A program made the position numbers and the translations under genes. DNA of 64,000 nucleotides from NCBI GenBank assembly GCA_902766095.1, contig CACXCN010000011.1, positions 1 through 64,000 on the forward strand, written 5' to 3'. Below, in pieces: positions 9,557-29,940 of the stretch. Origin of the DNA: an uncultured Selenomonas sp. (GTDB taxonomy: Bacteria; Bacillota; Negativicutes; Selenomonadales; Selenomonadaceae). The notes below the pieces were generated by a model. It had not been told where the DNA came from. It searched no databases and worked only from the letters and a program-made list of their open reading frames with translations. Position 1 is the stretch's first letter, and every line of letters starts with the position of its first letter.

Positions 9557-9670
9557 TTGATTTTTGTCCGATGTTGGTGTATTATAATAACAGACTGAGG
9601 GATAACACGTGGAATCAATTAGATTTTTATCGTTCTAGTTAATCGGTTCCTATAAAATATCAAGTTATCC
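9557..9670 (+). promoter_or_regulatory. Pectin-locus promoter and possible operators
   Basis: The 389-bp gap 9311-9699 holds the terminator above, an AT-rich stretch (9411-9556, no gene seen) and this promoter: TTGATT (9557-9562), a 17-bp spacer and TATTAT (9580-9585). Downstream lie AATTAGA-N10-TCTAGTT (9617-9640, one mismatch) and a wider inverted pair GGATAAC (9600-9606) and GTTATCC (9664-9670). Both are candidate regulator sites before the transporter gene; no regulator is assigned. Confidence 0.6.
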
Positions 9671-9699: not shown

Positions 9700-11247
9700 A
9701 TGGAACAGAAGGTACACGAACTAAAGCTCATCAACAAGCTGGGCTTTTCCTGCTACCAACTGTCGACAGTCACCGATACGCTCGTAAATGCTTGGCAGAT
9801 GTATTTCTATACCACATTCTGCAATATATCGATAGCGTTTGTAGCTTCGGTACTGGCGGCAAGCAAACTCATCAGCGCGTTTTTGACACCGATACTGGGC
9901 TCGGTCAGCGATCATCTCTATCAGACGAAATTCGGCCGCCGCTTCGGCCGGCGCAAGTCGATGCTGCTGATTGCCATTCCGTGGAAAGTAGGCGTGTTCC
10001 CGCTCTACTGGATTCCGAACATGCCGACCTGGTACTATGTGGGATTGCTGCTGCTGACGTCGTTCGTCAATCCGCTCGCGATCGTCTCGCAGGGCACGTT
10101 TGCCGCCGAGATGGCGCGTACTCCGTCCGAGAAGGCTCAGCTGGCCGGCATGAATCAGGTCGGTGCAGCCATCGCCGGCATCGCTTCATCGATGGCTACC
10201 GTGTATTTCTTCGATGCGTTCGGTTCGGATAACCCGATGACGTTCTTCATCGCCGCGCTGGTCTACGATGCCGTATCGCTGCTGATGCTCATCCTGTTCT
10301 ATCTGTCGGTGTTCGAGCGTCCGGTCGATCCAAAGTTCCTGGCTGAGGAGATGGCCAAAAAGGAAAAGCATTCCTTCGTGAAATCGTTCCGCATCATTGT
10401 TCGTGACTTCCGTTCGGCTATCCAGCTTCGGGCGTATCGCCTCTATTTGTGCATGTACCTCTCAGAGCAGATGTTCCGCTCGCTGGCCGGTACCATCAAT
10501 ACGTACTTCATCGTGTTCGTGCTCATGCTCGATCCGAAAGTTGTTTCTGTATCTACCGCAATGGGTTTCGTCTTCGGCATGTGCTTCCTGGGCTTCCATA
10601 TCTGGCTCACGGCGAAGACGAATGGTAATGTGACCTACCGCATCGGCGGTATTGCCGCTATAGCCATACTGGTTGGCTTCTTCTATCTGGGTGTGGAGCT
10701 GCCGCCGAACACGGAGCTGCTGCTCATCATATTCATCGTGGCCATGAACTTCGGCAAGGCTGGCCTCGTCAACGCCATGCAGTATACATTCGCCTTTATC
10801 CCGGATATCGATGAAGTGCTCACGGCTCATCGCCGCGAAGGAGTGTATTCTGGTGTCAATAACTTCCTTGATGTCCTGTTCACGACGCTCGAGGTTGTCA
10901 TTATCGGCTTTCTGCTCGAGGCTACCGGCTTCGTCAAGAATTCGCAGACGCAGCCGGATGCTACGGTCGATGCGCTACTCATACTCTACACGGTCGTACC
11001 AATCGTCATCATTTCCTTTGGCTTGTTCGTGACGTTCCGGTTCCATCTGAACCAGCATAACCACAAGCTGCTTGTCACCGAGGTAGCTCGCTTGAAGAAC
11101 GGCGGCAGCAAGGCGGATGTCGACAGCGAAACGAAGCGTGTTGTCGAGGACCTCACGGGTCATTCCTATGAGGAATGCTGGGGCAACAACGATATGTTGC
11201 AGGTAGCCGATGTGCAGGGGAGCGCAGCCGGTTCTACCGCGAAATAA
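9700..11247 (+). CDS. GPH-family sugar:cation symporter
   Basis: This 515-aa inner-membrane carrier of the glycoside-pentoside-hexuronide (MelB-like) group has about 12 hydrophobic helices. The family's cytoplasmic loop motif is present after the second helix (GSVSDHLYQTKFGRRFGRRK). It heads the RG-I gene run, so uptake of unsaturated RG-I oligosaccharides or the GalA-Rha disaccharide is inferred from context; the sequence alone gives only the family. The ATG is preceded by AAAGGGG at nine bases. No terminator separates it from the chemoreceptor 73 bp downstream, so the two are probably co-transcribed. Confidence 0.87.
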   Translation: MEQKVHELKLINKLGFSCYQLSTVTDTLVNAWQMYFYTTFCNISIAFVASVLAASKLISAFLTPILGSVSDHLYQTKFGRRFGRRKSMLLIAIPWKVGVFPLYWIPNMPTWYYVGLLLLTSFVNPLAIVSQGTFAAEMARTPSEKAQLAGMNQVGAAIAGIASSMATVYFFDAFGSDNPMTFFIAALVYDAVSLLMLILFYLSVFERPVDPKFLAEEMAKKEKHSFVKSFRIIVRDFRSAIQLRAYRLYLCMYLSEQMFRSLAGTINTYFIVFVLMLDPKVVSVSTAMGFVFGMCFLGFHIWLTAKTNGNVTYRIGGIAAIAILVGFFYLGVELPPNTELLLIIFIVAMNFGKAGLVNAMQYTFAFIPDIDEVLTAHRREGVYSGVNNFLDVLFTTLEVVIIGFLLEATGFVKNSQTQPDATVDALLILYTVVPIVIISFGLFVTFRFHLNQHNHKLLVTEVARLKNGGSKADVDSETKRVVEDLTGHSYEECWGNNDMLQVADVQGSAAGSTAK

Positions 11248-11320
11248 TCGTCAGATTCATTGGGTAAGGAAAAGAAGATAAGGTAACAACAAATAAGAAA
11301 AGCAAGTAGGGGAAAGTGAT

Positions 11321-13063
11321 ATGAGAATATCTGATTTGAATATAGCCTGCAAGCTCGGTCTGTATATAGTGATTACGACGCTGCTGATGGCGTCGATCGG
11401 CTATACCGGCTATCATTCGCTGCAGACGGTGAATGAGAACATGCAGGTGTACAGTGACCGCGTCACCGCGGCCCAGGCACTGGCAGGCGAGCAGCTCGGC
11501 ATCCGCAAGATGCAGATCGCACTGCTCGACTCGGCCGCTGCCCGGCCCGATGTGGTGACGGAGGACACGCCGTACGCGAAGCAGCATGGTCATGTCGTCG
11601 ATGCGAACGAGGGTAATGTCAAGGAGTTCGAGGCCAACTGGCAAAAGTACAAGGCCGTCGCTCCGGACAAGCCGGAGATACAGGCCGATATCGCTGAGGC
11701 TGAGGCGGCCTGGCAGAGCTATCGCGATACCCTGACCAAGGCGGGGAAACTCATAGCTGCCGGTCAGGACAAAGAAGGACTGGAGATCTATGTGGGGCCG
11801 GCGAAAGACGCTACGACCCGCATAAAGAAAGTCGTCGGTGAGCTCGAGAAAGATACCCAGGCCGATATGAAGGCCGTAGAGGAGGCCAATGAGGCCGAGA
11901 ACAAGGTCGTGATCACGAGGATGCTCGAGGTCATGATCGCCGGATTCGTCATCGTCGTCGTGCTGACGATATGGATTGTGCGCGAGATCAGACGTCCGTT
12001 GCGGCGCATGACGTCGACCTGCCAGCACCTGTATGATTGCGATTTCCGCGAACATCAGGAACTCCTGGTCAGCAGCCATGATGAGTTCGGCGCGATGTCC
12101 GAGGCTCTCGAGGCGATGCGTCTGCGTCTGCGGAAGCTGCTGTCACAGATAAAGACGAGCTCCGGCAAGGTGACAGACGAGGCTCAGACCCTCTCGCAGA
12201 TATCGTATCAGTCGGCGCAGGCCTCATCGCAGATCGCGAACTCGGTCAACCAGGCGGCCGGCTACGTCGAACAGCAGCAACAGGCTATGGAGCACAGTGC
12301 GGCGGCCATGCAGGCCGTAGCAGACTCCGTCGCGACGATAAAGTCGGAGGCTGGACGTGCCGCCCAGAACTCGGGCGAGGCGCGCCAGCAGGCGGTCAAT
12401 GGAGCCGCTTCCATCACCAATTCGACGGAGCAGATGGGACGCGTGCAGGATTCGGTGCAGTCAGCGGCTGATCTCGTAGATAAGCTCGGCAACCGCTCGA
12501 AGGTCATCGGCAATATCGTCGATACCATCACCGAGATCACCGGTCAGACGAATCTCCTGGCCCTGAATGCCGCCATCGAAGCAGCCCGGGCCGGTGAGGC
12601 TGGCCGCGGCTTCGCGGTCGTTGCCGACGAGGTCCGCAAGCTGGCGGAACAGTCACAGGAGGCGGCCGAGAAGATATCCGGTCTCGTAACGGTCATACAG
12701 AGCGAGACGATGGATGCAGTGAGCTCGATGGCTGATGGCCGCAATCAGGTCGACGAGGGGACTCATCTCGTACAGGATATGAGCGCTGTATTCCAGAGCA
12801 TCGAGCAGCTCGTCGTCGATACGGCCACTCAGATGGAGTCCATGGCGAAGAGCGTCGATGAGGCGGCTAACAATGCTGCTGCGGCTGCCGAGCAAGAGAA
12901 GCAGATGCGGGCGCACAGTGTCAAAGTCAATGAAGAGATGCAGTCGGTATCGGCAGCATCCGAGGAGCAGTCTGCCTCTGCGGAGGAGGTTGCTGCGGCC
13001 TCAGAGAGCCTGAACAAGCTGGCTGTAGAGCTTAACGATTCCATCAAGGAATTCAAATTCTAA
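11321..13063 (+). CDS. Methyl-accepting chemotaxis protein
   Basis: This 580-aa transmembrane chemoreceptor has TM1 at about 10-30. A periplasmic four-helix-bundle sensor follows (about 32-198), then TM2 (about 204-225), HAMP (226-280) and a long cytoplasmic signalling coil. The coil carries the conserved hairpin tip [20 protein letters not shown] and [19 protein letters not shown]. It ends in EFKF without an NWETF-type tail. RBS GGGGAAAG precedes the ATG. Its position between the RG-I transporter and the esterase, with no intervening terminator, suggests it senses a pectin-derived ligand or binding-protein complex; that is inference. Confidence 0.93.
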
Positions 13064-13111
13064 GCGTAAGATTTACGCGGCATTTTCTGAAACATGATTG
13101 AAGGTTTTTCT

Positions 13112-14470
13112 ATGTCCAAGATTCGTATACATATAGCTAGTGACTCCACCGTAGCTACCTATGGCGGCCGCGTTCTGCCCATGATGGGCTGGGGACAGCT
13201 GCTGTATCAGTATTTTGATTTTGACCAGGTCGAGATCTGGAACCGGGCCATATGCGGGCGCAGCTCGCGCAGCTTCGTCGAGGAGGGCCGGCTCGAGCGC
13301 ATGGCACAGGACTTCCGCCCCGGCGACTACCTGCTCATCCAGTTCGGGCATAACGATGCGACGAAACAGCGGCCGCAGCGATATACCGAGCCCGGGAAGC
13401 CATTTGCCGGCTGGCTGCAGCGCTACATCGATGCAGCTCGTGCCAAAGGCGTGCAGCCCGTGCTCATCACGCCGATGCAGCGGCGGGTATTCGATGCTGA
13501 GGGGCATTTCGAATGGGTGCTGATGGACTACATCCGCACCATACGCGAGCTGGCAGCTGCCGAGCAGGTACCGCTGCTCGACCTGGCTGCCGTCAGCGGC
13601 CCCGTCATCGCGAACATGGGGCCCGAGGAGAGTAAGAAATATTTCTTCTTCAGCGAGCCAGGCGAGGAGCCGAACTACCCCGATGGACATCAGGATGACA
13701 CACATTTCCAGGAGCGTGGGGCCCGGCTCATGGTCGAGCTCGTCGTGGGACTCATGAAAGAATCGGATCTGAATCTGAAAAAGTATATCATGCCCCGCCA
13801 GAAACCAGAGGTACGCGTCTATATGGCGGGCGACTCCACGATGGCCCAGTACGGTGGCCCTGAGCAGCCCATGGCCGGCTGGGGTCAGATGTTCTGGGAG
13901 TACATGCAGCCCACGGTCGAGATACGCAACCATGCCTGCTGCGGCCGCAGCTCCCAGTCATTCATCGACGAGGGACGTCTCGCACGCATCCTGCGTGAGA
14001 TACACAGCGGCGACTACTTGTTCATCCAGTTCGCACATAACGATGAGAAGCTTGACTATGACAATCCGGTGGCCTGCTTCGAGCGGAACATCCGGCAGTT
14101 CATCGCTGGGGCCCGGAGCCGGCTCGCCCATCCGGTGCTGCTGACTGCCGTCGAACGTCGCAAATTCACCGACAGCGGCGAGCTGCAGGTGACACACAGC
14201 CCGTTCATCGAAGCAACGCGCGAGATAGCGAGGCTCGAGGATGTGCCATTGCTCGATATGAATGCGGCCTCACGGCGGCTGCTCACCGAGCTTGGCCCGG
14301 AGGCAGCGCGGCAGCTGTTCCTCCAGGTACAGCCAGGCGAGGAACCGAACTACCCCGATGGTCATATGGACGACACGCATTTCTCGGAGTACGGAGCCAG
14401 GCGTATGGCCAGATTGGCGGCCCAGCTGCTGGCGGATTCGCCCATCGGGCTGCGCCTCATGCTGCGCTGA
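13112..14470 (+). CDS. Tandem CE12-type rhamnogalacturonan acetylesterase
   Basis: Two SGNH-hydrolase domains are fused in one 452-aa protein (about 1-225 and 232-452). Each copy has the catalytic set. Copy 1: SDST (Ser12), GRSSRSF, QFGHND and DDTHF (195-199). Copy 2: GDST (Ser242), GRSSQSF, QFAHND and DDTHF (420-424). The family (YesT/RhgT) removes acetyl groups from RG-I. There is no signal peptide, so it should act on imported oligosaccharides in the cytoplasm. The ATG at 13112 has GAAGG seven bases upstream; the in-frame ATG at 13094 has none. Both copies look active, and division of labour between 2-O and 3-O acetyls is possible but unproven. Confidence 0.87.
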   Translation: MSKIRIHIASDSTVATYGGRVLPMMGWGQLLYQYFDFDQVEIWNRAICGRSSRSFVEEGRLERMAQDFRPGDYLLIQFGHNDATKQRPQRYTEPGKPFAGWLQRYIDAARAKGVQPVLITPMQRRVFDAEGHFEWVLMDYIRTIRELAAAEQVPLLDLAAVSGPVIANMGPEESKKYFFFSEPGEEPNYPDGHQDDTHFQERGARLMVELVVGLMKESDLNLKKYIMPRQKPEVRVYMAGDSTMAQYGGPEQPMAGWGQMFWEYMQPTVEIRNHACCGRSSQSFIDEGRLARILREIHSGDYLFIQFAHNDEKLDYDNPVACFERNIRQFIAGARSRLAHPVLLTAVERRKFTDSGELQVTHSPFIEATREIARLEDVPLLDMNAASRRLLTELGPEAARQLFLQVQPGEEPNYPDGHMDDTHFSEYGARRMARLAAQLLADSPIGLRLMLR

Positions 14471-14510
14471 GCATGGATATGATTGAGAGTTCAGTGGAGA
14501 GATCGATTGT

Positions 14511-15803
14511 ATGAATATAAATGTTATGGACTATGGGGCGGCGGGCGATGGCGTCACCCTGGATACCGAGGCTCTGCAGCAGGCCATCGATGATGCCGAT
14601 ACCGGAGCCTGCGTCATCATACCGGCAGGCAGATATCTGACTGGCAGCCTGTTCCTGCACAGCAATATGAAGCTGTATCTCGAAAAGGATGCCGTGCTCC
14701 TGGGGAGCACGCAGCTCGACGACTATCCACAGATCGATACCCGTGTGGCGGGCATCGAGATGCGCTGGCCAGCCGCCCTGCTCAACGTGATCGATTGCCG
14801 CGATGTCCACATCGCGGGTCCTGGCACGCTTGATGGTCAGGGCGAGATCTGGTGGGAAACGTACTGGGGGACCGATGGGCACGGCGGACGTCGGGCCACC
14901 TACGATGCCCGGAACCTGCGTTGGATTGCTGACTACGAGATCCAGCGTCCGCGCCTCTTGCTCGTGCAGAACAGCCGGGACATCGAGCTGAGCGACATCA
15001 CGGCGCGCCGGTCGGGCTTCTGGAACATCCAGCTGACGTATTCCCAGCATGTGCATGTACATGATGTCACGGTCTGCGATAATGCCGGTCCGAGCACGGA
15101 CGGCATCGATGTGGACTCCTCGGAGCATGTGCTCATCGAGGGATGCACCGTCGCCTGCAACGACGATGATATCGTCATAAAATCCGGCCGCGATGCGGAC
15201 GGATTGCGCGTCGCCCGCCCCACGCGGGACGTCGAGATCCGGCACTGCCACATACGCTCCGGTGCCGGCATCACGATCGGCAGCGAGGTCTCCGGCGGTA
15301 TAGAGAATATCGATATCCATGACTGTGATTTCCAGAACAGTGACTGCGGATTCCGCATGAAATCCTCGCGGCTGCGCGGCGGCTATGTGCACCATGTCCG
15401 TGTGCATGGTCTCACGATGATGAACGTCCAGTTCCCGTTCTCGTGGGTGCTGGATTGGCATCCGGCCTACAATTCGTTCATCGTACCGGCCGGAGATATC
15501 CCTGAGTACTGGCGACGCATCGCGGCACCAGTGCCGGAGGAGCAGCAATACACCGACGTAGCCGATATCGAGGTAGAGGGATTCACCGCCCTCTACGGTG
15601 CGGACTACAGCAAGGTATCCCGGGCCATCGATATCCGCGGGGCTGGCAAGAAGCCGCTGCGCGCAATCAAGTTCAGCCAGGGACGGCTCGAGACGAGCGA
15701 GTTCGGTCACATCGAAGGCGTCAAAGACCTCGAGTTCACCGGAGTCATCGTCTACGCGCCTGAGCGCAGTTCATCCGCGAATGACGCCTATGACCAGCGC
15801 TGA
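14511..15803 (+). CDS. GH28 polygalacturonase/rhamnogalacturonan hydrolase
   Basis: This 430-aa right-handed parallel beta-helix hydrolyses alpha-GalA linkages. The GH28 aspartates are in STDGIDV (195-201) and NDDDIVIKSG (217-226), and the substrate-binding Arg-Lys pair is RMKS near 282. The usual Gly-His-Gly is replaced by GAG in SGAGITIGSEVSGG (about 250-263), so the family histidine is missing. This could signal RG-I rather than homogalacturonan specificity. With no signal peptide, it should act on imported oligomers in the cytoplasm. It sits 40 bp after the esterase and 27 bp before the GH105 gene in one operon. Confidence 0.87.
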   Translation: MNINVMDYGAAGDGVTLDTEALQQAIDDADTGACVIIPAGRYLTGSLFLHSNMKLYLEKDAVLLGSTQLDDYPQIDTRVAGIEMRWPAALLNVIDCRDVHIAGPGTLDGQGEIWWETYWGTDGHGGRRATYDARNLRWIADYEIQRPRLLLVQNSRDIELSDITARRSGFWNIQLTYSQHVHVHDVTVCDNAGPSTDGIDVDSSEHVLIEGCTVACNDDDIVIKSGRDADGLRVARPTRDVEIRHCHIRSGAGITIGSEVSGGIENIDIHDCDFQNSDCGFRMKSSRLRGGYVHHVRVHGLTMMNVQFPFSWVLDWHPAYNSFIVPAGDIPEYWRRIAAPVPEEQQYTDVADIEVEGFTALYGADYSKVSRAIDIRGAGKKPLRAIKFSQGRLETSEFGHIEGVKDLEFTGVIVYAPERSSSANDAYDQR

Positions 15804-15830
15804 GACAGTTCAGGAGAGGAGATCTTTTCT

Positions 15831-18011
15831 TTGAGTAGTTACTTTCCAGCGGCTGACAGCCTGGATCGGGCACAGCATGGCGATATGAGTCGCGAGCTGC
15901 GCACGATAGCCGGACGCTACATGGGAGATAATCCCGTGACGCCGCCCGTATTCCGCATCAGCCTTGCGAGTGGCTTCCGGCGGCAGGCCGATTACCGCTA
16001 TGTGTTCGACCTGGAGCAGCGGTTCCCTGAGGCCGGGCGCGAGCAGGCCGTCTATGCCTGGGGCCGCATATATTTCCCGGCCGCTACAGATGCCTGCTTC
16101 AAGGCAAATGCCATCGGCCCGATGACCGTGTGGCTCAATGGCCAGGTCATCTACCATTCCAATTACGAAGAGGAACGCGATGCCGCTCGGGCGCGTCGTT
16201 TCTTCATAAATGTACCGGCAGGCTGGTCGGATGTCGTCATCGAGTTCATCCGTACCCCCTTGGGATTCGGTGGCATATTCGGCACCGGCCGGTTCAAGAA
16301 TTTCCCCTTCCACTTCATGATGCCGCTCCCTGATACGCAGGGCTGGGAGGGCTGGGTCTACACCCGGCCGCAGCAGCGAGTGGATGTCGAGCATATCGAT
16401 GACTATATGAGCCTCCCGGCCGATGGTCACTGGCTGCCGGAGCGGAGCTTCGTAGCGGCTGAGGCAGGGGCGGATGCGCAGACATTCGGCCCTGCTCTGA
16501 ACCGCCTCTATGGCGATCGGCTCAGCCGCGGCCGGGCTGCCTGGGGCTGGACGCGCGCCCGCCTGCGCGGCGGCGAGCTCCATGTGCAGGGGCACGCCAG
16601 ATCAGCATTGAAGCTCCTGGTCAGTCTCGTCGGCGAAGCCGATGAAGCCAAGCAGGTCTCCTTGTCCGCTGGTGACGTCGATATCCATATACCAGTTGCC
16701 GGTGGCGAGCATGATCTGCGCGTCCAGGCCGCCGGTCACGAGGATGGCTGGGGCTGCGAGCTGACATTCACGCAGGATGGTCATCCGGCCCCGCTGCAGA
16801 ATCCGGCTCACGTCGTCGGCTACCGTGGCGCCTGGCTCTATCTCGGACCGGCGGCTCTGCAGGCGATGATACAGCCGGACCTGACGCTCGTCCAGCAGGA
16901 GACATACTGGCAGGTCGATGTCCCACAGGGCTTCATCCGGCCATTCCTCGAGAACGACCGCTTTGGCAAGTGGAACTATCCGCTCGGCGTCACGCTCTAC
17001 GGCATGCTCATGTGTGCGCGGGAGATCGGGGCCGATGATATGAAATCCTACATCCGCCAGCATGTCGATCTCGCCGTGAGCTATTACGACTACGCGCTCT
17101 GGGACAAGGAGCGTTACGGTGCAGCGGCTATCGACAATCAGATATCGAACGTCGACAGCCTCGATGACTGCGGCTCGTTCGCCTCGCTCATGCTCGAGCT
17201 CGGCCGCGAGGGGCACGTCCCCGGCAGTCGCGAGATCGCAGCTGCGACCGCGCACTACATCGAGCACGAGCAGACCCGCCTTGATGACGGTACGCTCGTG
17301 CGTGGACAGGCCAGCCTCGCCGAGATGGCCGGTACGATGTGGGCCGACGACCTCTACATGAGTGTCCCGTTCCTCTCTCGCTACTATGAGCTCACGGGTG
17401 ATACCGCCTATATCGACGATGCGGCGCGCCAGTACCTGAACTTCCGCAAATACCTGTTCATCCCGGAACAGAAAATCATGTCGCATGTCTATCTGACCGA
17501 CCGGGGAATCGCGAATCACATTCCCTGGGGCCGTGGCAACGGCTGGGTACTGTTCTCGCTCTCCGAGCTCCTGCGCGTCATGCCGCACGACCACGAGGCG
17601 CGTGCGACATTGCTCGAGTTCTTCCGCACGCTCTGCGAGGGCTATCTCGCGCTGCAGGACACGGATGGCATGTGGCATCAGGTCCTGACCGACCCGACCT
17701 CGTATCAGGAGGCGTCGTGCACAGCCATGTTCGTGAGCGCCTTCGCTCGTGGTGTGCGGCATGGCTGGTTGACAGGCGATGTGGAGAGCTACATACAGGC
17801 CGTCGAGCGCGGTTGGCACGGACTCAGCGAGCTGGCTGTCGATAGCCATGGCGCGGTGTACGGCATCTGCCAGGGCTCGGGCTACTCATTCCGCTCGACG
17901 TACTATCGCGATGAGCTGACCTGGGTGCTCAACGACCCGCACGGCATCGGCATCGTCCTCATGGCCGGCAGCGAGACGATGCGTCTGCGTGACTATCTGG
18001 CGGAGAGATGA
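15831..18011 (+). CDS. GH105 unsaturated rhamnogalacturonyl hydrolase with N-terminal accessory domain
   Basis: GH105 enzymes hydrate the 4,5-unsaturated GalA left by RG-I lyases and release it from rhamnose. The 726-aa protein has beta-rich N-terminal regions (about 1-340; WLNGQVIYHSNYEEE resembles a jelly-roll sugar-binding fold). An (alpha/alpha)6 barrel follows, with NYPLGVTLYGM, VDSLDDCGS, MWADDLYMSVPFL (about 502-514), GRGNGWVLFSLSELL (about 566) and SYQEASCTAMF. No signal peptide is seen. Start is TTG at 15831, nine bases after GAGGAG. The product pairs functionally with the PL4 lyases. The accessory domain makes it roughly twice the length of YteR-type enzymes. Confidence 0.87.
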   Translation: MSSYFPAADSLDRAQHGDMSRELRTIAGRYMGDNPVTPPVFRISLASGFRRQADYRYVFDLEQRFPEAGREQAVYAWGRIYFPAATDACFKANAIGPMTVWLNGQVIYHSNYEEERDAARARRFFINVPAGWSDVVIEFIRTPLGFGGIFGTGRFKNFPFHFMMPLPDTQGWEGWVYTRPQQRVDVEHIDDYMSLPADGHWLPERSFVAAEAGADAQTFGPALNRLYGDRLSRGRAAWGWTRARLRGGELHVQGHARSALKLLVSLVGEADEAKQVSLSAGDVDIHIPVAGGEHDLRVQAAGHEDGWGCELTFTQDGHPAPLQNPAHVVGYRGAWLYLGPAALQAMIQPDLTLVQQETYWQVDVPQGFIRPFLENDRFGKWNYPLGVTLYGMLMCAREIGADDMKSYIRQHVDLAVSYYDYALWDKERYGAAAIDNQISNVDSLDDCGSFASLMLELGREGHVPGSREIAAATAHYIEHEQTRLDDGTLVRGQASLAEMAGTMWADDLYMSVPFLSRYYELTGDTAYIDDAARQYLNFRKYLFIPEQKIMSHVYLTDRGIANHIPWGRGNGWVLFSLSELLRVMPHDHEARATLLEFFRTLCEGYLALQDTDGMWHQVLTDPTSYQEASCTAMFVSAFARGVRHGWLTGDVESYIQAVERGWHGLSELAVDSHGAVYGICQGSGYSFRSTYYRDELTWVLNDPHGIGIVLMAGSETMRLRDYLAER

Positions 18012-18020
18012 GGTAATGTC

Positions 18021-20567
18021 ATGAAAGATATAGATACAGCGAAGCTGCATGAGATATTCCGTCATCCATCCGGCGAGTACAGCGTCATGCCGTTCTGGTT
18101 CCTTAACGGCAAATTGGACAAGGCGGAGCTCCGACGACAGCTGCTAGATTTCCTAGCGCACGATGTGCATGGCGTGGTACTCCATCCGCGCCTCGGACTG
18201 ACTCGCGACACCCCCTACATGAGTGAGGCGTATCTCGACTGCATCAGATATGCCGTAGAGGTCGCAGCGGCGCATGACATGCGCGTCGTGCTCTACGATG
18301 AGGCCATGTACCCCTCAGGCTCGGCGCACGGCATGGTCGTCGCTGGCAATCCCGAGTATGCGGCTCGTGCCCTCCGGCTCATCGATGAGCTCTGGCTCGA
18401 GCAACAGGAGTGGCGGCCCGAGATTAGCGCCGAGGAGGAGATCATCTACGCGGCGGCTGTCTGGCAGAAGGATGATGGTTCGCTCGACCTCGTGCGGCAG
18501 CTGCCGCTGCAGCTGGAGGCCGATGGTTCCTATGCACTACCGGAGCGGCCGTCCGCGACAGCTGGCGGGCACTACCTGCTGACAGCCATCGTCGCGACGT
18601 ACTCGCATGGTACGATCCGCGGCGTGCACTTCGGCGAGGACGACGGCGAGCCGGGCGCTCCGGCGGCCGCTGACCTCCTGAATCCAGAGGCCATGCGGAA
18701 ATTCATCCGTGTCACGCATGAGAAATACTACGAATGCCTGCAGCAATACTTCGGCACGACGGTCATCGCGTTCTTCACCGATGAGCCGAGCCTGCTCGGC
18801 CGCTGCGTCGATGAGAAGAAGCTGAAGCCGTGGTCGAAGGATTGTCTGGCTGATTTCCTGGCGGCGGGCAATCAGCCCGGCGACCTCCTGGCCGAGTGGT
18901 ACGAGGCAGGCCCCGCGACGGAGAGCCTGCGGCGGCGCTATCGCCGCTTCCTGAACAGCCGGCTCGAGGCCAGCTACTATGAGCAGCTCTCCGACTGGTG
19001 CGCGGCGCACGGCATCGCCCTGACGGGGCATCCGGCTGGTAGCATGGATATCGGCTGCCTGCGGCACTTCCAGATACCGGGACAGGATCTCGTCTGGCGC
19101 TGGGTAGCGCCGGAGAACGATCTCGGTATCACGGGCGTGAACAGCACGCTCGCGAAGTGCTCGAGCGATGCGGCCCGGCATCTCGGACGCCGACGCAATG
19201 GCAACGAGTGCCTCGGCTGCTGCGGTCCGGTCAATCACCCGTGGGACTTCACCGTCGCCGATATGAAATGGTACTTCGATTGGCTGTTTGTGCGCGGCGT
19301 GAACCTGCTGTTCCCGCATGCGTTCCTTTACTCGGTCGAGGGCGAGCCCCGCTACAACGAGCGTCCGCCTGATGTGGGACCGAACAACAGCTGGTGGCCC
19401 TACTACGGCTACATCGCGCGTTACGCCGCGCGGCTGAGCTGGCTCAATACCGACAGCACGAATACGGCCAGCGTCGCCGTGCTCTGCGAGCCCGACACCT
19501 TGCCCTGGCGCATTGTGCGGCCGCTCTATGAGCATCAGATCGAGTTCAACTACCTCGAGGATCGCCTGCTCACCGGTGAGACGGAAACTCAGGCAATCAT
19601 CGCGGCGGGCGCTATCGATATCGGCCGTCAGCATTACACGATCCTGCTGATCGAGGACCTGGAGCTGCTGGAGGATGCGGCCCTCGCCGCAACCGTTCGC
19701 GAATTCCAGGCGGGCGGTGGTCAGGTGATTGCAGTGCGTCCCGATAGTGGAACGGTTCCTATGGGGACTGAACCGGTATCGTATGTCCGCACGGCCGATG
19801 AGCTCGTGCAGCGCCTGCAGGCGCTCGGCGCTCAGACGGGCAAGCTGGCTCCGGCCAGCACCGATATCCGCCTGACGCACCTCCGGCGCGCGGACGATAG
19901 GCGCGAATACTATTTGCTGACGAATGAGGGCGAGCCGGACTATGCCGGCACGCTGCAACTGTCCGTCAGCGGCAGCGTCGAGCGCTGGGACCCCTGGACG
20001 GGCGAGATGGAAGCGCAGCCGGTGACGCAGACGGCGGACGGGCTGACGATGAAGCTCGAGCTGCCGCGGCGCGGCTCCGTGATCTACTGCATCGACCCGG
20101 ACGGGACGCCGCAGCTCGATGAGGCGGCGAAAACGGTTCGCCATGAGGACATCGTCCTGCGCGACTGGCAGACGGAGCTGCCGCCTGGAGAGACCTGGGC
20201 GCATCCGCTACGGCCGAACCTGGGAATCGGCGACTGGACGGAGCTGGCAGAGCTGCATGACTACTATGGCAGCCTGGTATATCGGACGCAGGTAGAGCTG
20301 CCCGCAGCTGCTGAGGTACAGGGCGTCGCCCTCGACCTCGGTACGGTCGGCGAGCTCGCCGAGGTACTCATCGATGGGGAGCGCGTCGGTGTCAGTCTCT
20401 GGGCACCGTATCGCGTGGATCTATCAGCCGCGCTGGGCGCGGCACGGCGCACAGCCGAGCTCACCGTCATCGTGACGAGCAGCTATAGCCGGCGCTACAG
20501 TGACCGGGTAAGACCCTCAGGACTCCTGGGGCCTGAGCCGCGGCTCGAAGTGACATATCGGGCCTGA
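18021..20567 (+). CDS. GH106-like putative alpha-L-rhamnosidase
   Basis: This 848-aa cytoplasmic protein has an N-terminal TIM-barrel start typical of the GH106-related group (FWFLNGKLDKAELRRQLLDF, HPRLGL, VVLYDEAMYPSGSAHG). Its middle contains FFTDEPSL and LTGHPAGSMD, and it ends in a galactose-binding-like beta-sandwich (about 715-840). Removal of rhamnose from RG-I oligomers fits the adjacent GH105, GH28 and rhamnose genes. Family membership is from pattern memory, not a search; another clan GH with the same barrel is possible. RBS GAGG overlaps the GH105 stop region. The gene is followed by 111 bp with no clear terminator before the porin. Confidence 0.62.
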   Translation: MKDIDTAKLHEIFRHPSGEYSVMPFWFLNGKLDKAELRRQLLDFLAHDVHGVVLHPRLGLTRDTPYMSEAYLDCIRYAVEVAAAHDMRVVLYDEAMYPSGSAHGMVVAGNPEYAARALRLIDELWLEQQEWRPEISAEEEIIYAAAVWQKDDGSLDLVRQLPLQLEADGSYALPERPSATAGGHYLLTAIVATYSHGTIRGVHFGEDDGEPGAPAAADLLNPEAMRKFIRVTHEKYYECLQQYFGTTVIAFFTDEPSLLGRCVDEKKLKPWSKDCLADFLAAGNQPGDLLAEWYEAGPATESLRRRYRRFLNSRLEASYYEQLSDWCAAHGIALTGHPAGSMDIGCLRHFQIPGQDLVWRWVAPENDLGITGVNSTLAKCSSDAARHLGRRRNGNECLGCCGPVNHPWDFTVADMKWYFDWLFVRGVNLLFPHAFLYSVEGEPRYNERPPDVGPNNSWWPYYGYIARYAARLSWLNTDSTNTASVAVLCEPDTLPWRIVRPLYEHQIEFNYLEDRLLTGETETQAIIAAGAIDIGRQHYTILLIEDLELLEDAALAATVREFQAGGGQVIAVRPDSGTVPMGTEPVSYVRTADELVQRLQALGAQTGKLAPASTDIRLTHLRRADDRREYYLLTNEGEPDYAGTLQLSVSGSVERWDPWTGEMEAQPVTQTADGLTMKLELPRRGSVIYCIDPDGTPQLDEAAKTVRHEDIVLRDWQTELPPGETWAHPLRPNLGIGDWTELAELHDYYGSLVYRTQVELPAAAEVQGVALDLGTVGELAEVLIDGERVGVSLWAPYRVDLSAALGAARRTAELTVIVTSSYSRRYSDRVRPSGLLGPEPRLEVTYRA

Positions 20568-20678
20568 ACAGGGAAAGCTGTTTATTACCAATGTCAGCGT
20601 CAGTAGAGAGTCGTTTGGCATTGAGGCAATAATAGAGATTCAATAGAGGTTTGTGTTAAATTTATGGGGGGATTCTCA

Positions 20679-22325
20679 ATGAAATCCAGAATCATGAACA
20701 AACAACTGATTGCGGCAGTCGTTGCCGGCTGCTTGGTGGGGCTGACTTCGCCGGTATTCGCAGCAGCAGCGGGCGGATTTGACGATGTACCGCGCGACAA
20801 CTGGAGCTACGGTGCCATCCAGACACTGCTCAAGGACGGCGTTATCGACTCGTTCGATGATAATACGTTCAATGGTCAGAAAATCGTCACGCGTTTCGAG
20901 ATGGCTCAGATCATCCGTCGCGCTACGAACAAGGCCGTGAATTCCTCAAGCGTCAGTTCTTCTGATAAGGAGCTCATTATAAAGCTCAGCAAGGAGTACG
21001 GCAAGGAGCTGAATCAGCTCAAGAGCGGCAGCCTCTCGAACTCGTCCAATAACAGTGCCGCAGTTGTGCGTCCGGGGAAGAACGGCATAATGGATTTCAG
21101 CGGCACGAAGACCTACGTGCGATACGATTACTGGAACAACAAGAGCAATTACACCAACAGGACCGATAAGAGCGCTGGCGGCGACAAGGGGAACTTCTTC
21201 ATGGATGTCGAGTTGCGCGGCCGCTATGAGTTTGCTCCGAAGTGGAATGCCCGTTTCATGTATGAGATGCAGCGGGCCATTTCAGGGCAGTCCTTGCAGG
21301 AGGATGGCGAAGGTGACCTGAAGGAGTTCAGCATCGATGGCCCGTTGAAGGTCGGCAAACTGAAAAACTCGAAGTTCCAGTTCGGTCGTTTCAAGTACAA
21401 GCCAGTGCTTGGCTACGTCACGAAGGCCTATATGCAGGGTGGTATCTGGAATTTCCAGGCCAACAAGAAGCTCAAGGTCGAGGTAGCCTATGGCGATCTC
21501 AGTGAGAGATACTATCGCTCCGGTGGCTACAATACGTCCGATGTGGCAGGAGTAGATAAATACAGGATCATTGATCAGAATGGAAAAGTCATCGCCTCCT
21601 ATGACAGCAAGAACAATAGCAAGGGCGTAATCCAGAACAAGGATACCAAGAGCAAACTGCCCAATATCGCTACGACGCAGAAAAGCTACTACAATTCCGA
21701 CTCAGCCTATTCGGTACTCTACGCGCCTTATTCCGAGCAGATGGGCGTCATCTCCCTGCGCTATCAGGCAGATCGCAAGACGCGCCTCTATGGCGGTTTC
21801 TACACATTGAACAGCAAGCACAAATCATTCCACGATGCTCAGATATACGAGCTCGCTGGCCAGCGCACGCTGGACAAAGATTTCACGCTCTACTTCGACT
21901 GGGCTCGCAGCAGCCGCAGTGAAGACAACTCGCTCTATTACCTCGGCTTGAAGTATAAGAACGAGAGCCTTTCAAAGCCGCATAGCTGGAGCTGGCTCGT
22001 ACAGGGCGCCTTCCACGAAGCCAAGGCCACTATCAACTCCGATCTCGATATCAAGAACTACGGCGTAAGAGAAGGTTCGCTGACTGGTGATACGGCAGCT
22101 GCATTCAATGGCGACAGCGGCAGCTGGTACTATGGCTATAACACCGAGCGTCATGCGTATAACGGCGCTAAAGGATTCGCTGTGACATACAAATGGGTTC
22201 CGTTGGCTCACTCCGTACTCGTGTTCCGCGGCATGTACTTCGAACCGATACATGTAGATGCCAGCTGCAAGGATGCCATGAAGCATCGCTTCCAGTTCCG
22301 TACCGAGTATGATATCTACTTCTGA
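20679..22325 (+). CDS. SLH-domain outer-membrane porin (OmpM-like)
   Basis: This 548-aa outer-membrane protein is of the Negativicutes type. It has a signal peptide (about 1-29, ending VFAAAA) and one SLH domain (about 33-90, GGFDDVPRDNWSYGAIQTLL through TRFEMAQIIRRAT). A helical or Ser/Asn-rich linker follows to about 130, then a C-terminal beta-barrel of alternating strands ending FRTEYDIYF with terminal Phe, the usual Bam signal. SLH binds the modified peptidoglycan and tethers the outer membrane. Placement between RG-I glycosidases and lyases suggests an oligosaccharide-specific pore replacing a SusC/D system. The start is the ATG at 20679, six bases after GGGGGGA. Confidence 0.9.
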   Translation: MKSRIMNKQLIAAVVAGCLVGLTSPVFAAAAGGFDDVPRDNWSYGAIQTLLKDGVIDSFDDNTFNGQKIVTRFEMAQIIRRATNKAVNSSSVSSSDKELIIKLSKEYGKELNQLKSGSLSNSSNNSAAVVRPGKNGIMDFSGTKTYVRYDYWNNKSNYTNRTDKSAGGDKGNFFMDVELRGRYEFAPKWNARFMYEMQRAISGQSLQEDGEGDLKEFSIDGPLKVGKLKNSKFQFGRFKYKPVLGYVTKAYMQGGIWNFQANKKLKVEVAYGDLSERYYRSGGYNTSDVAGVDKYRIIDQNGKVIASYDSKNNSKGVIQNKDTKSKLPNIATTQKSYYNSDSAYSVLYAPYSEQMGVISLRYQADRKTRLYGGFYTLNSKHKSFHDAQIYELAGQRTLDKDFTLYFDWARSSRSEDNSLYYLGLKYKNESLSKPHSWSWLVQGAFHEAKATINSDLDIKNYGVREGSLTGDTAAAFNGDSGSWYYGYNTERHAYNGAKGFAVTYKWVPLAHSVLVFRGMYFEPIHVDASCKDAMKHRFQFRTEYDIYF

Positions 22326-22345
22326 TAATGAAAGGAGCAGCTTCT

Positions 22346-24103
22346 ATGATAGTGAAGTCTAGATTGGCTGGCGCGGTGACGCTGGCTCTGGCAGCTGCCC
22401 TGGTCTATGGCATGACGCCGGCAGAAGCAGCTGATATCGCCACGGTACAGGGACAGAACGTCACCATGAACAATGGCGTGATAGAGATACATCTCATCAA
22501 GAATGGCACGGCCACTTACCTTTCGAAGAACGGCGGCCCGAATCTCGTCGAGAATGTCATCAAGAACAAGCTGACATTCTACTGTGACTATCATCCAGCC
22601 GGACAGCCCGACATGCCGTTTCTCTCCGATCAGGTCAAGGTCTATGAGAACAATGAGAATGTGGCTCACATAGCTTACATCGACTCGAAGAGCCCGCTGG
22701 CTGTCGAGTACCATTATCGTATGGTCAAGGGCGATAGCGGCATATATCAGTACGTCGTAGCCAGGAACAATACCGGCAAGGTCTATCCCATAGGCGAGTT
22801 CCGCACCGTCTACCGCATTGATATGGATAAATTGCCGAACGCCTACAATGCGTACCGGCAGGCCCCGATGCCAGCCTCATCGCATATGCGGTCGTTCAAG
22901 AAACTCCAAGATGAAACCTATGATATGGATGATGGGTTCAAGTATACGAATGGCTCGGTTTATTCGAAATATGATTTTGCCGGCTACTATAAGGACAACC
23001 CGCTCTGGGGCACTTATGGCAACGGCAAAGGCTTCTGGTATATTCCAGTGAGCATGGAGGCCTATCCGGGCGGACCCATGAAGCAGGATTTGCTGGTGCA
23101 CTATGATGGCATCATTCTGAACTACATGATGGGCGCGCATTTCGGCACGGGTGTGACCAAGGTGCCGGCAAACTGGACGAAGATGTACGGCCCATGGTAC
23201 CTCTATATCAATGATGGTGATTCCGACGAGGCGGTCATATTCGACGCGCGTCAGCGAGCGGCACTTGAGCAGAAGGAATGGCCCTACCAGTGGGTCGATG
23301 AGTCGCTATATCCGAAAGCCCGCGGTACCGTCAAGGGACAGCTGAAGCTGACGAACGGCGGCATCATCGATAAGGCGCAGGTCATACTGGCGCGTCCTGG
23401 CTCTGATGTCGTACATGATTCTGAGAGCTATATATTCTCTGCCGATACGGACGGGAACGGAAGCTTCACCATTGACAAGGTCCGTCCGGGCATTTACGAT
23501 CTCACGGCCTATATGCAAGGCGGTCCGAGCGGTGACGTTACGACGGAGCTGAAGAAGGGCCAGATAAAAGTCGAGCCCGGTAAGACAACCGACCTCGGTA
23601 CAGTAGAGTGGCAGGTGCCACAGCGTGAGACAATCTGGCAGCTCGGCACGGCTGACCGTAAGGCCTCGGAATTCAGATACGGCGGCGAGCTGCGCAACTA
23701 CAAGTGGTCGCAGATGCTGCCGGATGACGTCGATTTCTATATCGGCAAATCTGATGAGAGCGAGGACTGGTATTATTCGCAGGCTGGTATAGGCACATAC
23801 AACATCCATTTCGACATGGACTCCATACCGGCGCAGAAATACCACCTGACTGTTTGTCTCGCTGGTTATTCCGATAAGGGAAATGGCTCATTCGAAATAA
23901 GATTCAATGGGCATCTGCTCAAGACCTGCGACTACGAAAATGATCAGACGGTCTATCGTTCTGGTACGACCAGTGGCACATACCATCAGGAAGATTTCGA
24001 CATCGATGCTGCGTGGCTGAAGAAAGGCGATAATGTAGTATCGTTTGTCGATAAGAATGGCCTGATAATCTACGATACTGTGGTGTTTTCAGCTGGGAAA
24101 TAA
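22346..24103 (+). CDS. PL4 rhamnogalacturonan lyase, copy 1
   Basis: This 585-aa exported lyase cleaves the Rha-GalA backbone of RG-I by beta-elimination. A signal peptide (about 1-29, cleavage near PAEA-AD) is followed by the three-domain PL4 layout: a catalytic beta-sandwich (about 35-320), an FnIII-like domain (about 325-410, GTVKGQLKLTNGG, ADTDGNGSF) and a CBM-like C-terminal domain beginning WQLGTADRKASEF. Catalytic-region motifs include KYDFAGYYKDNPLWGTYG and GGPMKQDLLVHYD. The ATG at 22346 has AAAGGAGC upstream and lies 20 bp after the porin stop. Periplasmic or surface location is inferred from the signal peptide. Confidence 0.87.
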   Translation: MIVKSRLAGAVTLALAAALVYGMTPAEAADIATVQGQNVTMNNGVIEIHLIKNGTATYLSKNGGPNLVENVIKNKLTFYCDYHPAGQPDMPFLSDQVKVYENNENVAHIAYIDSKSPLAVEYHYRMVKGDSGIYQYVVARNNTGKVYPIGEFRTVYRIDMDKLPNAYNAYRQAPMPASSHMRSFKKLQDETYDMDDGFKYTNGSVYSKYDFAGYYKDNPLWGTYGNGKGFWYIPVSMEAYPGGPMKQDLLVHYDGIILNYMMGAHFGTGVTKVPANWTKMYGPWYLYINDGDSDEAVIFDARQRAALEQKEWPYQWVDESLYPKARGTVKGQLKLTNGGIIDKAQVILARPGSDVVHDSESYIFSADTDGNGSFTIDKVRPGIYDLTAYMQGGPSGDVTTELKKGQIKVEPGKTTDLGTVEWQVPQRETIWQLGTADRKASEFRYGGELRNYKWSQMLPDDVDFYIGKSDESEDWYYSQAGIGTYNIHFDMDSIPAQKYHLTVCLAGYSDKGNGSFEIRFNGHLLKTCDYENDQTVYRSGTTSGTYHQEDFDIDAAWLKKGDNVVSFVDKNGLIIYDTVVFSAGK

Positions 24104-24135
24104 GCAGTTGATTCTCGGGATATCTTAGCAATGAG

Positions 24136-24166
24136 AGGGCTGTTGCTTATGGCAACAGCCCTTTTA
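24136..24166 (+). terminator. Terminator between the two PL4 genes
   Basis: AGGGCTGTTGC (24136-24146) and GCAACAGCCCT (24152-24162) form an 11-bp perfect stem with a 5-nt loop, followed by TTTT. It could reduce expression of the second lyase relative to the first. Confidence 0.85.
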
Positions 24167-24185
24167 TCAAAGGAGCAGACCACAT

Positions 24186-26009
24186 ATGAAGACTGAATAT
24201 GCCGGGGCGACCGGCGTACTGGCCTTGACATTGTTGCTGGGCAGCATCCCGCCGGCAGAGGCTGGCATGCTGCAGCTCGATCGCGCGGCCATGCACGCTG
24301 AGCTCGACAATGGGATCCTCGATATCGCCATACGGTTTGATGGCACGGTGGAGAAGGCGCTCTACAAGGGGCGTGACATCATCAAGGACCGTGCGCCGGG
24401 CAAGACGACATTTTATCTCGACTACAATACCGGTCATCATGCCTATGCCGTGATACCGAACCAGCTGCGCGTGCTCGAGGATACCGACGAGGTAGCGCAT
24501 GTGGCCTACGTGGACACGCAGAGCATCCTCGGACTCGAGTATCACTACATCATGAAGCGCGGCGACAGCGGGCTCTACTCCTACGTCATCGCGCGCAACA
24601 ATCTGCCGGAGCCGCTGCATCTCGCTGAGATGCGCACGGTCTATCGGCTCGACCGCAGCCTGTTCGATCATGCCTATACGGTGGAGCGCGACAGCCTCAT
24701 CCCGCGTCAGGATGTCATGCGCAAAGGCAAGAAGCTGCAAGATGAGACGTATGACATGGGACCCGAGGGCGAGAAGTACACGAATGGTCCCATCTATGAG
24801 AAATACGACTATGCAGCCTACCTCGCGGATACGCCGTTCTGGGGGGCCTACGGGCATGGGCTCGGGTTCTGGGTCATGCCCGTGAGCAACGAGTATCATC
24901 CGGGCGGCCCGCTGAAGCAGGACCTCACGGTCCACTATGATACGGTCGTCTGCAACTACCTGACGAGTGCTCATTTCGGCACGCCGGAGTTCGATGCGCC
25001 GGTGGGCTGGGAGAAGATGTACGGTCCTTGGTATGTGTATGTGAACGAGGGGACGCCGGAGCAGGTGAAGCATGATGCCGCCCGTCGCGAGCAGCGCGAG
25101 CGCAGGGCCTGGCCGTACGCCTGGGTGCGGGAGAGCGATTATCCTGTGACGCGTGGCTCGGTCCGCGGTTGCCTGCAGTTCAGTGATGGACGTCCGGCAG
25201 CTGATGCGCAGATCATCCTGGCTCGTCCCGGCGTCGATGCCATCGATGAGTCGGACTCGTACCTGTTCGCTGCCCGGACCGATGCACGCGGCCGATTCGA
25301 GGTGCCGCAGGTGCGGCCAGGCGAGTATGAGCTGCAGGCCTATTTCGCCAAGGCTCCTCAGGCTGGACAGCCACAGAGCATAACGGATACGTTCCGCAGC
25401 CAGCCGTTCCGCGTGAGCGCACAGGGCGCGAAACTGCCGACACTGGTCTGGCCAGTCGAAGCGCCTGAGGTGGTCTGGCAGATCGGCACGGCTGATCATC
25501 GGGCCGATGAATTCGCCTATGGCGGTGAGCCACGCAACTACAAATGGCATCAGATGGTGCCGGCGGATCTCGACTACGATGTAGCGACGAGCACTGCCGC
25601 GCAGGACTGGTACTACGTGCAGAGTCGTCCGGGGCGCTGGAACATCCATTTCACGCTGCCTGCGTCGGAGCTGCAGCAGCACGACTATGAATTCGTTCTA
25701 GCGCTCGCTGGCTACTCGACTGGTATGGGCAAGCAGTACGCGACGGTCGATGCCGGGCTGCTGCTGAACGGTCAGCCGCTGCAGCAGATCAAGTACCCGA
25801 ATGACAAATCCGTCTATCGCTGCAGCACGACGAGCGGTACGTACCACAGGATGGTGGTCAAGCTGCCACGGAAGCTGCTGCAGCCTGGGGCGAATACCCT
25901 GACGATCGAGAATCGCGGCGCCTCGCTCATGTACGATACGTTGCTCCTGCAGAAAAGCAAATCCGGGACTGTGAACGAAAGCCGCGGCCAGCAGCCGCAG
26001 CAGGGATGA
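24186..26009 (+). CDS. PL4 rhamnogalacturonan lyase, copy 2
   Basis: This 607-aa paralogue of the preceding lyase has the same three domains and a signal peptide (about 1-26, PPAEAGM). Matching motifs include KYDYAAYLADTPFWGAYGHG, GGPLKQDLTVHYDTVV, KMYGPWYVYVNEG, LARPGVDAIDESDSYLF and WQIGTADHRADEF. It uses more GC-rich codons and has a Gln-rich tail. RBS AAAGGAG lies nine bases before the ATG. Two diverged lyases may differ in chain position or acetylation tolerance; the sequence does not tell. No separate promoter was found after the terminator, so expression may depend on readthrough. Confidence 0.87.
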   Translation: MKTEYAGATGVLALTLLLGSIPPAEAGMLQLDRAAMHAELDNGILDIAIRFDGTVEKALYKGRDIIKDRAPGKTTFYLDYNTGHHAYAVIPNQLRVLEDTDEVAHVAYVDTQSILGLEYHYIMKRGDSGLYSYVIARNNLPEPLHLAEMRTVYRLDRSLFDHAYTVERDSLIPRQDVMRKGKKLQDETYDMGPEGEKYTNGPIYEKYDYAAYLADTPFWGAYGHGLGFWVMPVSNEYHPGGPLKQDLTVHYDTVVCNYLTSAHFGTPEFDAPVGWEKMYGPWYVYVNEGTPEQVKHDAARREQRERRAWPYAWVRESDYPVTRGSVRGCLQFSDGRPAADAQIILARPGVDAIDESDSYLFAARTDARGRFEVPQVRPGEYELQAYFAKAPQAGQPQSITDTFRSQPFRVSAQGAKLPTLVWPVEAPEVVWQIGTADHRADEFAYGGEPRNYKWHQMVPADLDYDVATSTAAQDWYYVQSRPGRWNIHFTLPASELQQHDYEFVLALAGYSTGMGKQYATVDAGLLLNGQPLQQIKYPNDKSVYRCSTTSGTYHRMVVKLPRKLLQPGANTLTIENRGASLMYDTLLLQKSKSGTVNESRGQQPQQG

Positions 26010-26387: not shown

Positions 26388-27794
26388 ATGAAAACAACGA
26401 ACTATTATCTGGCTATTGATATCGGCGCCTCGAGTGGACGCCATATACTGGGCTGGATGGAGAATGGCAAGATCCGTATGGAGGAGATATATCGCTTCCA
26501 GAACGGCTTGCACAAGGAAAACGGTCATCTTTGCTGGGACATCGACCATCTGGCAGCAGAGGTCGTAGCGGGGCTCAAGAAATGCCGGGAGCTGGCGCGC
26601 GTCCCAGAGAGCGTGGGCATCGATACCTGGGGCGTCGATTTCGTCCTGCTCGATGAGAACGGCAACCGCCTTGGCAACAGCGTCTCGTACCGTGATCACC
26701 GCACGGAAGGCATGGACGAGATCGTCTATCAGAAGATACCGGAGAAAGAGCTCTACGCGCGCAACGGCATCCAGAAGCAGATATTCAATACGATCTATCA
26801 GCTGACTGCCATCCAGCAGACGACGCCGGAGCTGCTCGAGCGGGCGGAGACATTCCTGATGATACCGGAATATCTGAACTATCTGCTGACCGGCGTCCGC
26901 ATGAATGAGTATACGAACGCGACGACGACCCAGCTCGTCAATGCGAAGACGCAGACCTGGGATGATGAGCTCCTTGCGAAGCTCGGCTTCCCGCGCAAGC
27001 TCTTTGGCGAGCTGCATATGCCGAAAAGCGTTGTCGGACCACTGAGCGACAAGGTGGCCGAGCAGGTAGGGTTCCAGACGACGGTCGTGCTGCCGGCCAC
27101 GCATGATACGGGATCGGCCGTGCTCGCCGTACCGGCGGAGGGCGAGGAAAGCATCTATCTGAGCTCGGGCACGTGGTCCCTCATGGGGATCGAGCGGCTC
27201 ATACCGGATTGTACGGAGACGAGCCGCAAGCATAACTTCACGAACGAGGGTGGCTATCACTACCGCTATCGCTATCTGAAGAACATCATGGGCATGTGGA
27301 TGATGCAGTCGCTGCGGCGGGAGTTCAAACACGCCTATACGTTCGAGGAGCTGTACGAGCTCGCGCATATCGGCCGCTACTTCACCTCGACGGTCGATGT
27401 GAATGATGACTGCTTCCTATCGCCGGACAGCATGATAAAGGCAGTACAGGATTACTGCGAGCGCACGGATCAGGAGAAGCCGGAGACGGAATGCGAGCTC
27501 CTGTACTGCATCTACCACAGCCTTGCGAACTGCTATGCGAAGACCGTGGCCGAGATCGAGGAAGTGACCGGCCGCAAATACGATACGATCAATGTCGTAG
27601 GCGGCGGCTGCCAGGACCGTTTCCTGAACCATCTGCTGGTCGAGGAGACGGGCAAAGAGGTCTATGCGGGCCCGATAGAAGCTACGGCCATCGGCAACCT
27701 GCTCGTGCAAATGCTGCGCGATAATGTATTCGTCGATCTCAACGAGGGACGTCGCACCATAGCGAAATCCTTCGATGTAAAGAAAGTTGATTGA
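26388..27794 (+). CDS. rhaB: Rhamnulokinase
   Basis: This FGGY-family sugar kinase phosphorylates L-rhamnulose at C1 using ATP in the cytosol. The 468-aa protein has the N-terminal ATPase fold start LAIDIGASSGRHILG, the substrate-region GIDTWGVDFVLLD, PATHDTGSAVLAVP and YLSSGTWSLMG, and the C-terminal NVVGGGCQDRFLNHL. It heads rhaB-rhaA-rhaD and has its own promoter. RBS AGGTGA lies seven bases before the ATG. Length and motifs match the family, with no oddities. Confidence 0.95.
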   Translation: MKTTNYYLAIDIGASSGRHILGWMENGKIRMEEIYRFQNGLHKENGHLCWDIDHLAAEVVAGLKKCRELARVPESVGIDTWGVDFVLLDENGNRLGNSVSYRDHRTEGMDEIVYQKIPEKELYARNGIQKQIFNTIYQLTAIQQTTPELLERAETFLMIPEYLNYLLTGVRMNEYTNATTTQLVNAKTQTWDDELLAKLGFPRKLFGELHMPKSVVGPLSDKVAEQVGFQTTVVLPATHDTGSAVLAVPAEGEESIYLSSGTWSLMGIERLIPDCTETSRKHNFTNEGGYHYRYRYLKNIMGMWMMQSLRREFKHAYTFEELYELAHIGRYFTSTVDVNDDCFLSPDSMIKAVQDYCERTDQEKPETECELLYCIYHSLANCYAKTVAEIEEVTGRKYDTINVVGGGCQDRFLNHLLVEETGKEVYAGPIEATAIGNLLVQMLRDNVFVDLNEGRRTIAKSFDVKKVD

Positions 27795-27828
27795 AGCTGG
27801 ATAAAGCTTTTCGAGGAGGAAAATAAAG

Positions 27829-29064: not shown

Positions 29065-29093
29065 TTCATTTTCAGGAAGCTGAGGTTTTTATC

Positions 29094-29912: not shown

Positions 29913-29940
29913 ATAGCGAACGCGCCTGATATTATTGTAA

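Follow-up and report, generated by a model that had tools for sequence, protein, structure and literature searches.

The methyl-accepting chemotaxis receptor encoded at positions 11321-13063 (plus strand) of the window, that is, the whole 64,000-nucleotide stretch of Selenomonas sp. DNA that was analysed, is probably an operon-encoded sensor of an acidic rhamnogalacturonan-I (RG-I) product in the periplasm that would be dedicated to the RG-I operon. That the receptor belongs to this operon is supported, at the level of sequence, by the syntenic operon of another genus and by the joint presence of transporter and sensor. The expression of the receptor with the operon, the class of its ligand and the attractant sign of the response are predicted.

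Receptor gene and layout of the RG-I operon

The receptor consists of 580 amino acids as defined by its open reading frame and Pfam domains. It matches the Pfam families 4HB_MCP_1 (9.2e-13), TarH (7.7e-13), HAMP (1.4e-8), and MCPsignal (6e-42). The periplasmic four-helix-bundle sensor (residues 33-198; 11417-11914, plus strand) was identified from Pfam, the structure model, and PDB fold matches, and it is flanked by hydrophobic stretches at residues 8-26 and 202-220 that correspond to two transmembrane helices. The HAMP domain (residues 218-271; 11972-12133) and the MCP signalling domain (12371-12907) follow on the same strand. The signalling domain exhibits the conserved hairpin tip, and the length from this tip to the C-terminus is 166, which is the same in 10 of the 13 other MCPs of the genome. 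These characteristics agree with the initial annotation, in which the protein had been described as a canonical MCP with a periplasmic four-helix sensor. The sensor model (17 sequences) has a mean pLDDT of 79.4 and consists of helices 3-72, 85-113, 118-146, and 150-238. The membrane-distal alpha1-alpha2 tip (11546-11608, plus strand), which was delimited from alignments and from the modelled alpha1-alpha2 region, is placed between helices 3-72 and 85-113. It carries the private insertions P76-T80 and V93-N96, and these tip blocks have pLDDT values of 63-69.

The receptor gene is the second gene of a co-directional run of nine genes for RG-I use (9700-26009, plus strand). The first gene of the run encodes a GPH/MFS_2 sugar transporter (9700-11247) that matches PF13347 (8.4e-36) and, below the curated cut-off, TIGR00792 (3.8e-28). 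The receptor gene is followed by the genes of a tandem GDSL esterase of the rhamnogalacturonan/pectin acetylesterase type (13094-14470; PF13472 in two stretches and a weak match below cut-off to the PaeY model), a rhamnogalacturonidase-like GH28 protein (14511-15803; profile matches), a GH88/105-type unsaturated glucuronyl/rhamnogalacturonyl hydrolase (15831-18011; PF07470 at residues 379-719, 2.8e-65), a GH106-like alpha-L-rhamnosidase (18021-20567; PF17132, 2.1e-5, and NCBIfam AlphaRhamBT4145, 3.1e-13, both below cut-off), an SLH-domain outer-membrane porin (20664-22325; PF00395), and two PL4 rhamnogalacturonate lyases (22328-24103, PF14683 3.2e-28; 24186-26009, PF14683 6.9e-25). In the GH88/105-type protein, the N-terminal part of approximately 375 residues (15831-16960) matched no Pfam family. 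The esterase carries its two GDSL domains in tandem in a single chain. A poor ribosome site accompanies its first ATG, and the second one, at 13112, is the better candidate.

Signal-like N-termini, judged by eye, are present in both PL4 lyases and in the porin, and none is visible in the GDSL, GH28, GH105, and GH106 proteins. The lyase products are therefore expected in the periplasm, which is the site of the sensor. No solute-binding-protein family was found among the scanned operon proteins. The genes for rhamnose catabolism, namely rhaB, rhaA, an aldolase gene (rhaD), and rhaM (26388-30418, plus strand; profile matches), are separated from the lyases by a gap of 378 bp before rhaB and thus possibly form a separate transcript. 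A stable hairpin after rhaM (30410-30500; fold z -2.64) is the likely terminator of the rhamnose genes. The DeoR-family protein that is encoded further downstream (30807-31559, minus strand; PF00455 and PF08220) is a candidate regulator of the RG-I locus.

The intergenic gaps along the nine-gene run are 73, 30, 40, 27, 9, 96, 2, and 82 bp. The receptor gene lies 73 bp after the transporter gene and 30 bp before the esterase gene (48 bp if the esterase starts at its second ATG), which corroborates the position between transporter and esterase that had been assigned to it. A promoter-like site, TTGATT-17-TATTAT (9557-9585, plus strand; consensus match only), precedes the operon. A separate promoter for the receptor together with constitutive expression had been named beforehand as refuting evidence, and no plus-strand sigma-70-like site was found between 9585 and 12008. 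The sole terminator-like element at the 3' end of the receptor gene is a weak hairpin (13064-13078, plus strand) that is not a convincing terminator, as 50 of 200 shuffled sequences are at least as stable (z -0.41), and the gene is without a convincing flanking terminator, in line with the initial annotation. Co-transcription of the receptor with the operon is predicted from this layout. The sigma-28 score before the receptor gene is 17, compared with a background 95th percentile of 18, at most 19 for the other MCPs, and 17-21 for flagellins scored in gene orientation, and the score therefore discriminates poorly. The 5' leader of the operon exhibits folding no better than shuffles, and a search for leader RNAs gave no Rfam match within 8000-32000.

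The genome of the window (2.34 Mb, 94 contigs, 99.8% complete) has 14 MCP genes, CheW domains at five places that include two CheA-sized frames, and flagellin domains at six places. Only two of the 14 MCP genes are flanked on either side, at a distance of up to 150 bp, by genes that run in the same direction, namely those of the operon receptor and an MCP of the che cluster beside CheR; this count was based on a simple choice of open reading frames, and two other MCPs lie near contig ends and are partly visible. The initial annotation had stated that receptors are seldom co-transcribed with polysaccharide genes. This holds within the genome but not in the sense of an unprecedented arrangement, since a methyl-accepting transducer is listed among the regulators of carbohydrate loci in the gpPULs of Roseburia and Eubacterium rectale (PMC5320581). 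Those loci resemble the locus of the window in having an MCP-type protein, and rhamnogalacturonan is not mentioned in the available part of that source. In one genome, assumed to have 2,200 genes, chance would place one or more of 14 MCPs in a run of this kind with a probability of approximately 0.05. A single genome is therefore not persuasive, and the question of chance is decided by comparison across genomes.

Taxonomic distribution and conservation of the receptor

The whole operon is syntenic in RUG072 (G013), a rumen genome of another genus, where the receptor gene also lies between the transporter and esterase genes. The identities between both operons are 82% for the MFS_2 transporter, 57% for the receptor, 52% for GDSL, 65% for GH28, 59% for GH105, 55% for GH106, 60% for the porin, and 80% and 53% for the PL4 lyases. 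At E<=1e-100, the transporter was found in only two of 189 family genomes (the window genome and RUG072), and the receptor gene adjoins it in both. The next best receptor after that of RUG072 is 40% identical (151 family genomes). The search with the sensor only at 1e-12 identified three of 380 class genomes, namely the window genome itself, RUG072 (67%), and G070 (31%), and the match in G070 does not have the tip insertion and is not part of an RG-I locus. In genome contigs, a degenerate pattern identified three loci for the transporter and no orthologues for the receptor. No further transporter besides that of the window was found at 1e-120, a strict cut-off, in a non-exhaustive phylum sample of 398 genomes. 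RUG072 has a promoter-like site within its transporter gene (L084 9268-9295). The palindrome ATAAACCGGTTTAT closely follows the promoter-like region that precedes the operon in RUG072 (L084, between 7500 and 8010); it resembles a LacI-type operator, and the leader in the window exhibits no equally clear copy.

The sensors of the window and RUG072 receptors are 64% identical (112 of 175), and the parts after the second transmembrane helix are 56% identical (202 of 360). Ten of the 14 MCPs have a reciprocal best partner in RUG072 (15 proteins used), and the five reciprocal-best pairs with sensors of 157-176 residues were taken as controls. Their identities for sensor and post-membrane part are 66/71, 47/62, 41/67, 41/54, and 34/54%, which gives 46% and 61% when pooled. 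This is the reverse of the direction in the operon receptor pair, and the operon pair differs from the pooled controls with z 4.5 when alignment columns are treated as independent. Within the operon pair alone, which is one orthologous pair, the excess of sensor over cytoplasmic identity is not significant (Fisher p 0.09). The controls exclude L047, whose partner is truncated to 414 aa, and L055, in which no transmembrane helices were found. Two pairs with large sensors were kept apart, of which L053 exhibits the higher identity in the sensor (57/54%) and L050 does not (17/41%). The nine-residue tip insertion (P76-T80 and V93-N96) is common to the window and RUG072 receptors only. Each of its columns is a gap in 12-15 of the 15 other family receptors that were aligned, and the insertion was not seen in the other aligned MCPs of the window genome and RUG072.

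The PL4 domain PF14683 was found in five of 380 class genomes, namely the window genome, RUG072, Pelosinus, G070, and G278. Orthologous MCPs at PL4 loci are present in the window genome and RUG072, and G278 has only a PL4 fragment. In G070, which belongs to the same genus as RUG072, the locus is reduced to rhaBADM, a shortened porin, two PL4 lyases, and DeoR (G070:C43:18000-57800). In 40 kb of G070, covered as two adjoining stretches of 20 kb, there is no transporter, receptor, or esterase and there are no glycosidases. Since transporter and receptor are both present in two genomes and both missing in G070, they appear to be kept or missing together within the family, although the number of genomes is small. 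The reduced locus of G070 has the appearance of block-wise gain or loss.

Outside the family, Pelosinus propionicus DSM 13327 has the transporter (76%) followed by a 4HB MCP in the same orientation (L082 9520-12982). Pelosinus was given less weight as independent support because its MCP is non-orthologous, with a sensor only 18.7% identical to that of the window, because an inverted repeat and a promoter-like site lie between transporter and MCP, and because MCPsignal matches number 55 in this genome. The Pelosinus MCP is followed by a broken MFS_2 transporter and pieces of a GH4 enzyme, and the neighbouring transporter and MCP are possibly an independent pairing or a rearrangement scar. Clostridium sp. 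DSM 17811 has the transporter (59%) and PL4, and no MCP was found in the 17.5 kb examined. A general rule that RG-I operons carry an MCP was rejected, as G070 and Clostridium sp. DSM 17811 are without one in the stretches covered and the MCP of Pelosinus is non-orthologous.

Candidate ligands and alternative explanations

Among relatives of known structure, Tsr is the closest by sequence (3.6e-7). In the phmmer alignment, the residues R64, R69, and R73 of Tsr, its ligand-site arginines, face Q65, S71, and R75 of the receptor, and only R73 is matched. An amino-acid receptor is thus unlikely, and a receptor of the Tar/Tsr type was ruled against because R64 and R69 are replaced by Q65 and S71. 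The fold and architecture are the same as those of Tsr and Tar of E. coli, whereas the amino-acid site is not conserved. The top fold matches of the sensor are PcaY_PP-LBD (Z 17.5) and MCP2201-LBD (Z approximately 16), and the matches range over Z 15-17.5 with 8-14% identity. Both folds are compatible with a sugar-acid ligand, though a shared fold does not show function. PcaY_PP of Pseudomonas putida is a 4HB receptor for metabolisable cyclic acids whose tightest ligand, according to PMC5449446, is quinate, a cyclic polyhydroxy acid; its likeness to the sensor (rmsd 1.8 over 141 aligned residues) comes with a sequence identity of 8%.

The expected location of the lyase products in the periplasm, the sugar-acid-compatible fold, and the lack of an amino-acid site favour an acidic RG-I product that is sensed directly. 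The receptor would be functional and dedicated to the operon for RG-I use, located in the inner membrane, and made upon operon induction. Its periplasmic four-helix bundle would sense a small acidic compound that arises when RG-I is broken down, and the likeliest ligands would be unsaturated galacturonate-rhamnose oligosaccharides or galacturonate freed by the PL4 lyases. Ligand binding would bias the flagellar motor through the CheA/CheW of the genome, and the cells would gather at sites of RG-I degradation. The most specific form of this proposal, direct binding of a PL4-made unsaturated galacturonate-rhamnose oligosaccharide by the sensor with its nine-residue tip insertion, is tentative.

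A protein may instead mediate the sensing, either the GPH transporter, whose state the receptor would read, or a periplasmic protein that carries a sugar and docks at the distal tip, and we consider this rather unlikely. The genes of receptor and transporter are direct neighbours in both genomes, and the private insertion sits at the membrane-distal tip, where maltose-binding protein docks on Tar. Docking of a sugar-loaded protein is disfavoured by the lack of a solute-binding protein gene among the annotated operon genes, and a GPH-type symporter needs no such protein. Most gut 4HB chemoreceptors have no known ligand, and docking of solute-binding proteins is one of the reasons proposed in PMC12415202 for a screen in which none of 11 folded gut 4HB domains bound any of the screened compounds. 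A by-product of pectin or a cue that occurs with it is an improbable ligand, be it methanol, borate, or acetate made by the acetylesterase that is encoded next to the receptor. The esterase gene is the next gene, a borate receptor exists in Ralstonia according to PMC5561266, and receptors for small carboxylates are among the 4HB fold matches (MCP2201: citrate and malate). However, the esterase is without a visible signal peptide, so acetate would be freed in the cytoplasm and away from the sensor, and a general cue does not explain a sensor that is confined to genomes with the RG-I operon.

It is likewise improbable that the receptor is a bystander, that is, an MCP gene that was inserted by chance into the operon of the common ancestor, or that moved along with it, and that kept an unrelated ligand. 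The chance estimate for one such operon leaves room for such an event, the non-orthologous receptor beside the Pelosinus transporter makes chance neighbours plausible, and the PL4 loci of Clostridium and G070 are without any MCP. These points are opposed by the conservation of the sensor above the signalling region and the private insertion in both receptors, as well as by the occurrence of transporter and receptor together in both genomes and the joint absence of transporter, receptor, esterase, and glycosidases in G070.

Relation to known receptors and biological meaning

Receptors encoded in catabolic clusters are already known. NahY is needed for naphthalene taxis and its gene lies with degradation genes (PMC5116465; PMC6600141; Grimm and Harwood 1999), and alkN is located between alk operons (PMC5116465). 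The genes of NahY and AlkN of Pseudomonas, like that of the window receptor, sit with the genes for degradation of a growth substrate. They are compared here by gene position; NahY and AlkN are plasmid-borne and concern aromatics and alkanes, whereas the window receptor belongs to a polysaccharide operon of an anaerobic Gram-negative Firmicute. In Clostridium cellulovorans, an MCP protein is reported to be up approximately four-fold (log2 1.96) on xylan compared with glucose (PMC4441647).

Pectin chemotaxis in Sphingomonas sp. A1 is described as coupled to pectin uptake through the binding protein SPH1118, in a system of a periplasmic pectin-binding protein, an ABC transporter, and a presumed MCP-like receptor (PMC7055323). 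The window system differs from it in that the operon itself includes the MCP gene and encodes a GPH symporter, and in that a binding protein was not seen among the operon proteins. Beyond this pectin system, no receptor for RG-I or galacturonate turned up in a literature search that was thin on subscription journals, and the assignment of an RG-I substrate to a receptor would be new.

Since RUG072 keeps the receptor at the same place in its operon, taxis of this motile, gut-type bacterium towards the food that the operon digests is probable. The single substrate of the operon makes the list of candidate ligands short, and the receptor would show taxis wired into the regulon of one polysaccharide. 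If direct binding of the lyase-derived oligosaccharide is true, the receptor would be a dedicated chemoreceptor for the product of a polysaccharide lyase that is made only during RG-I digestion, and the cells would track sites of plant-wall digestion.
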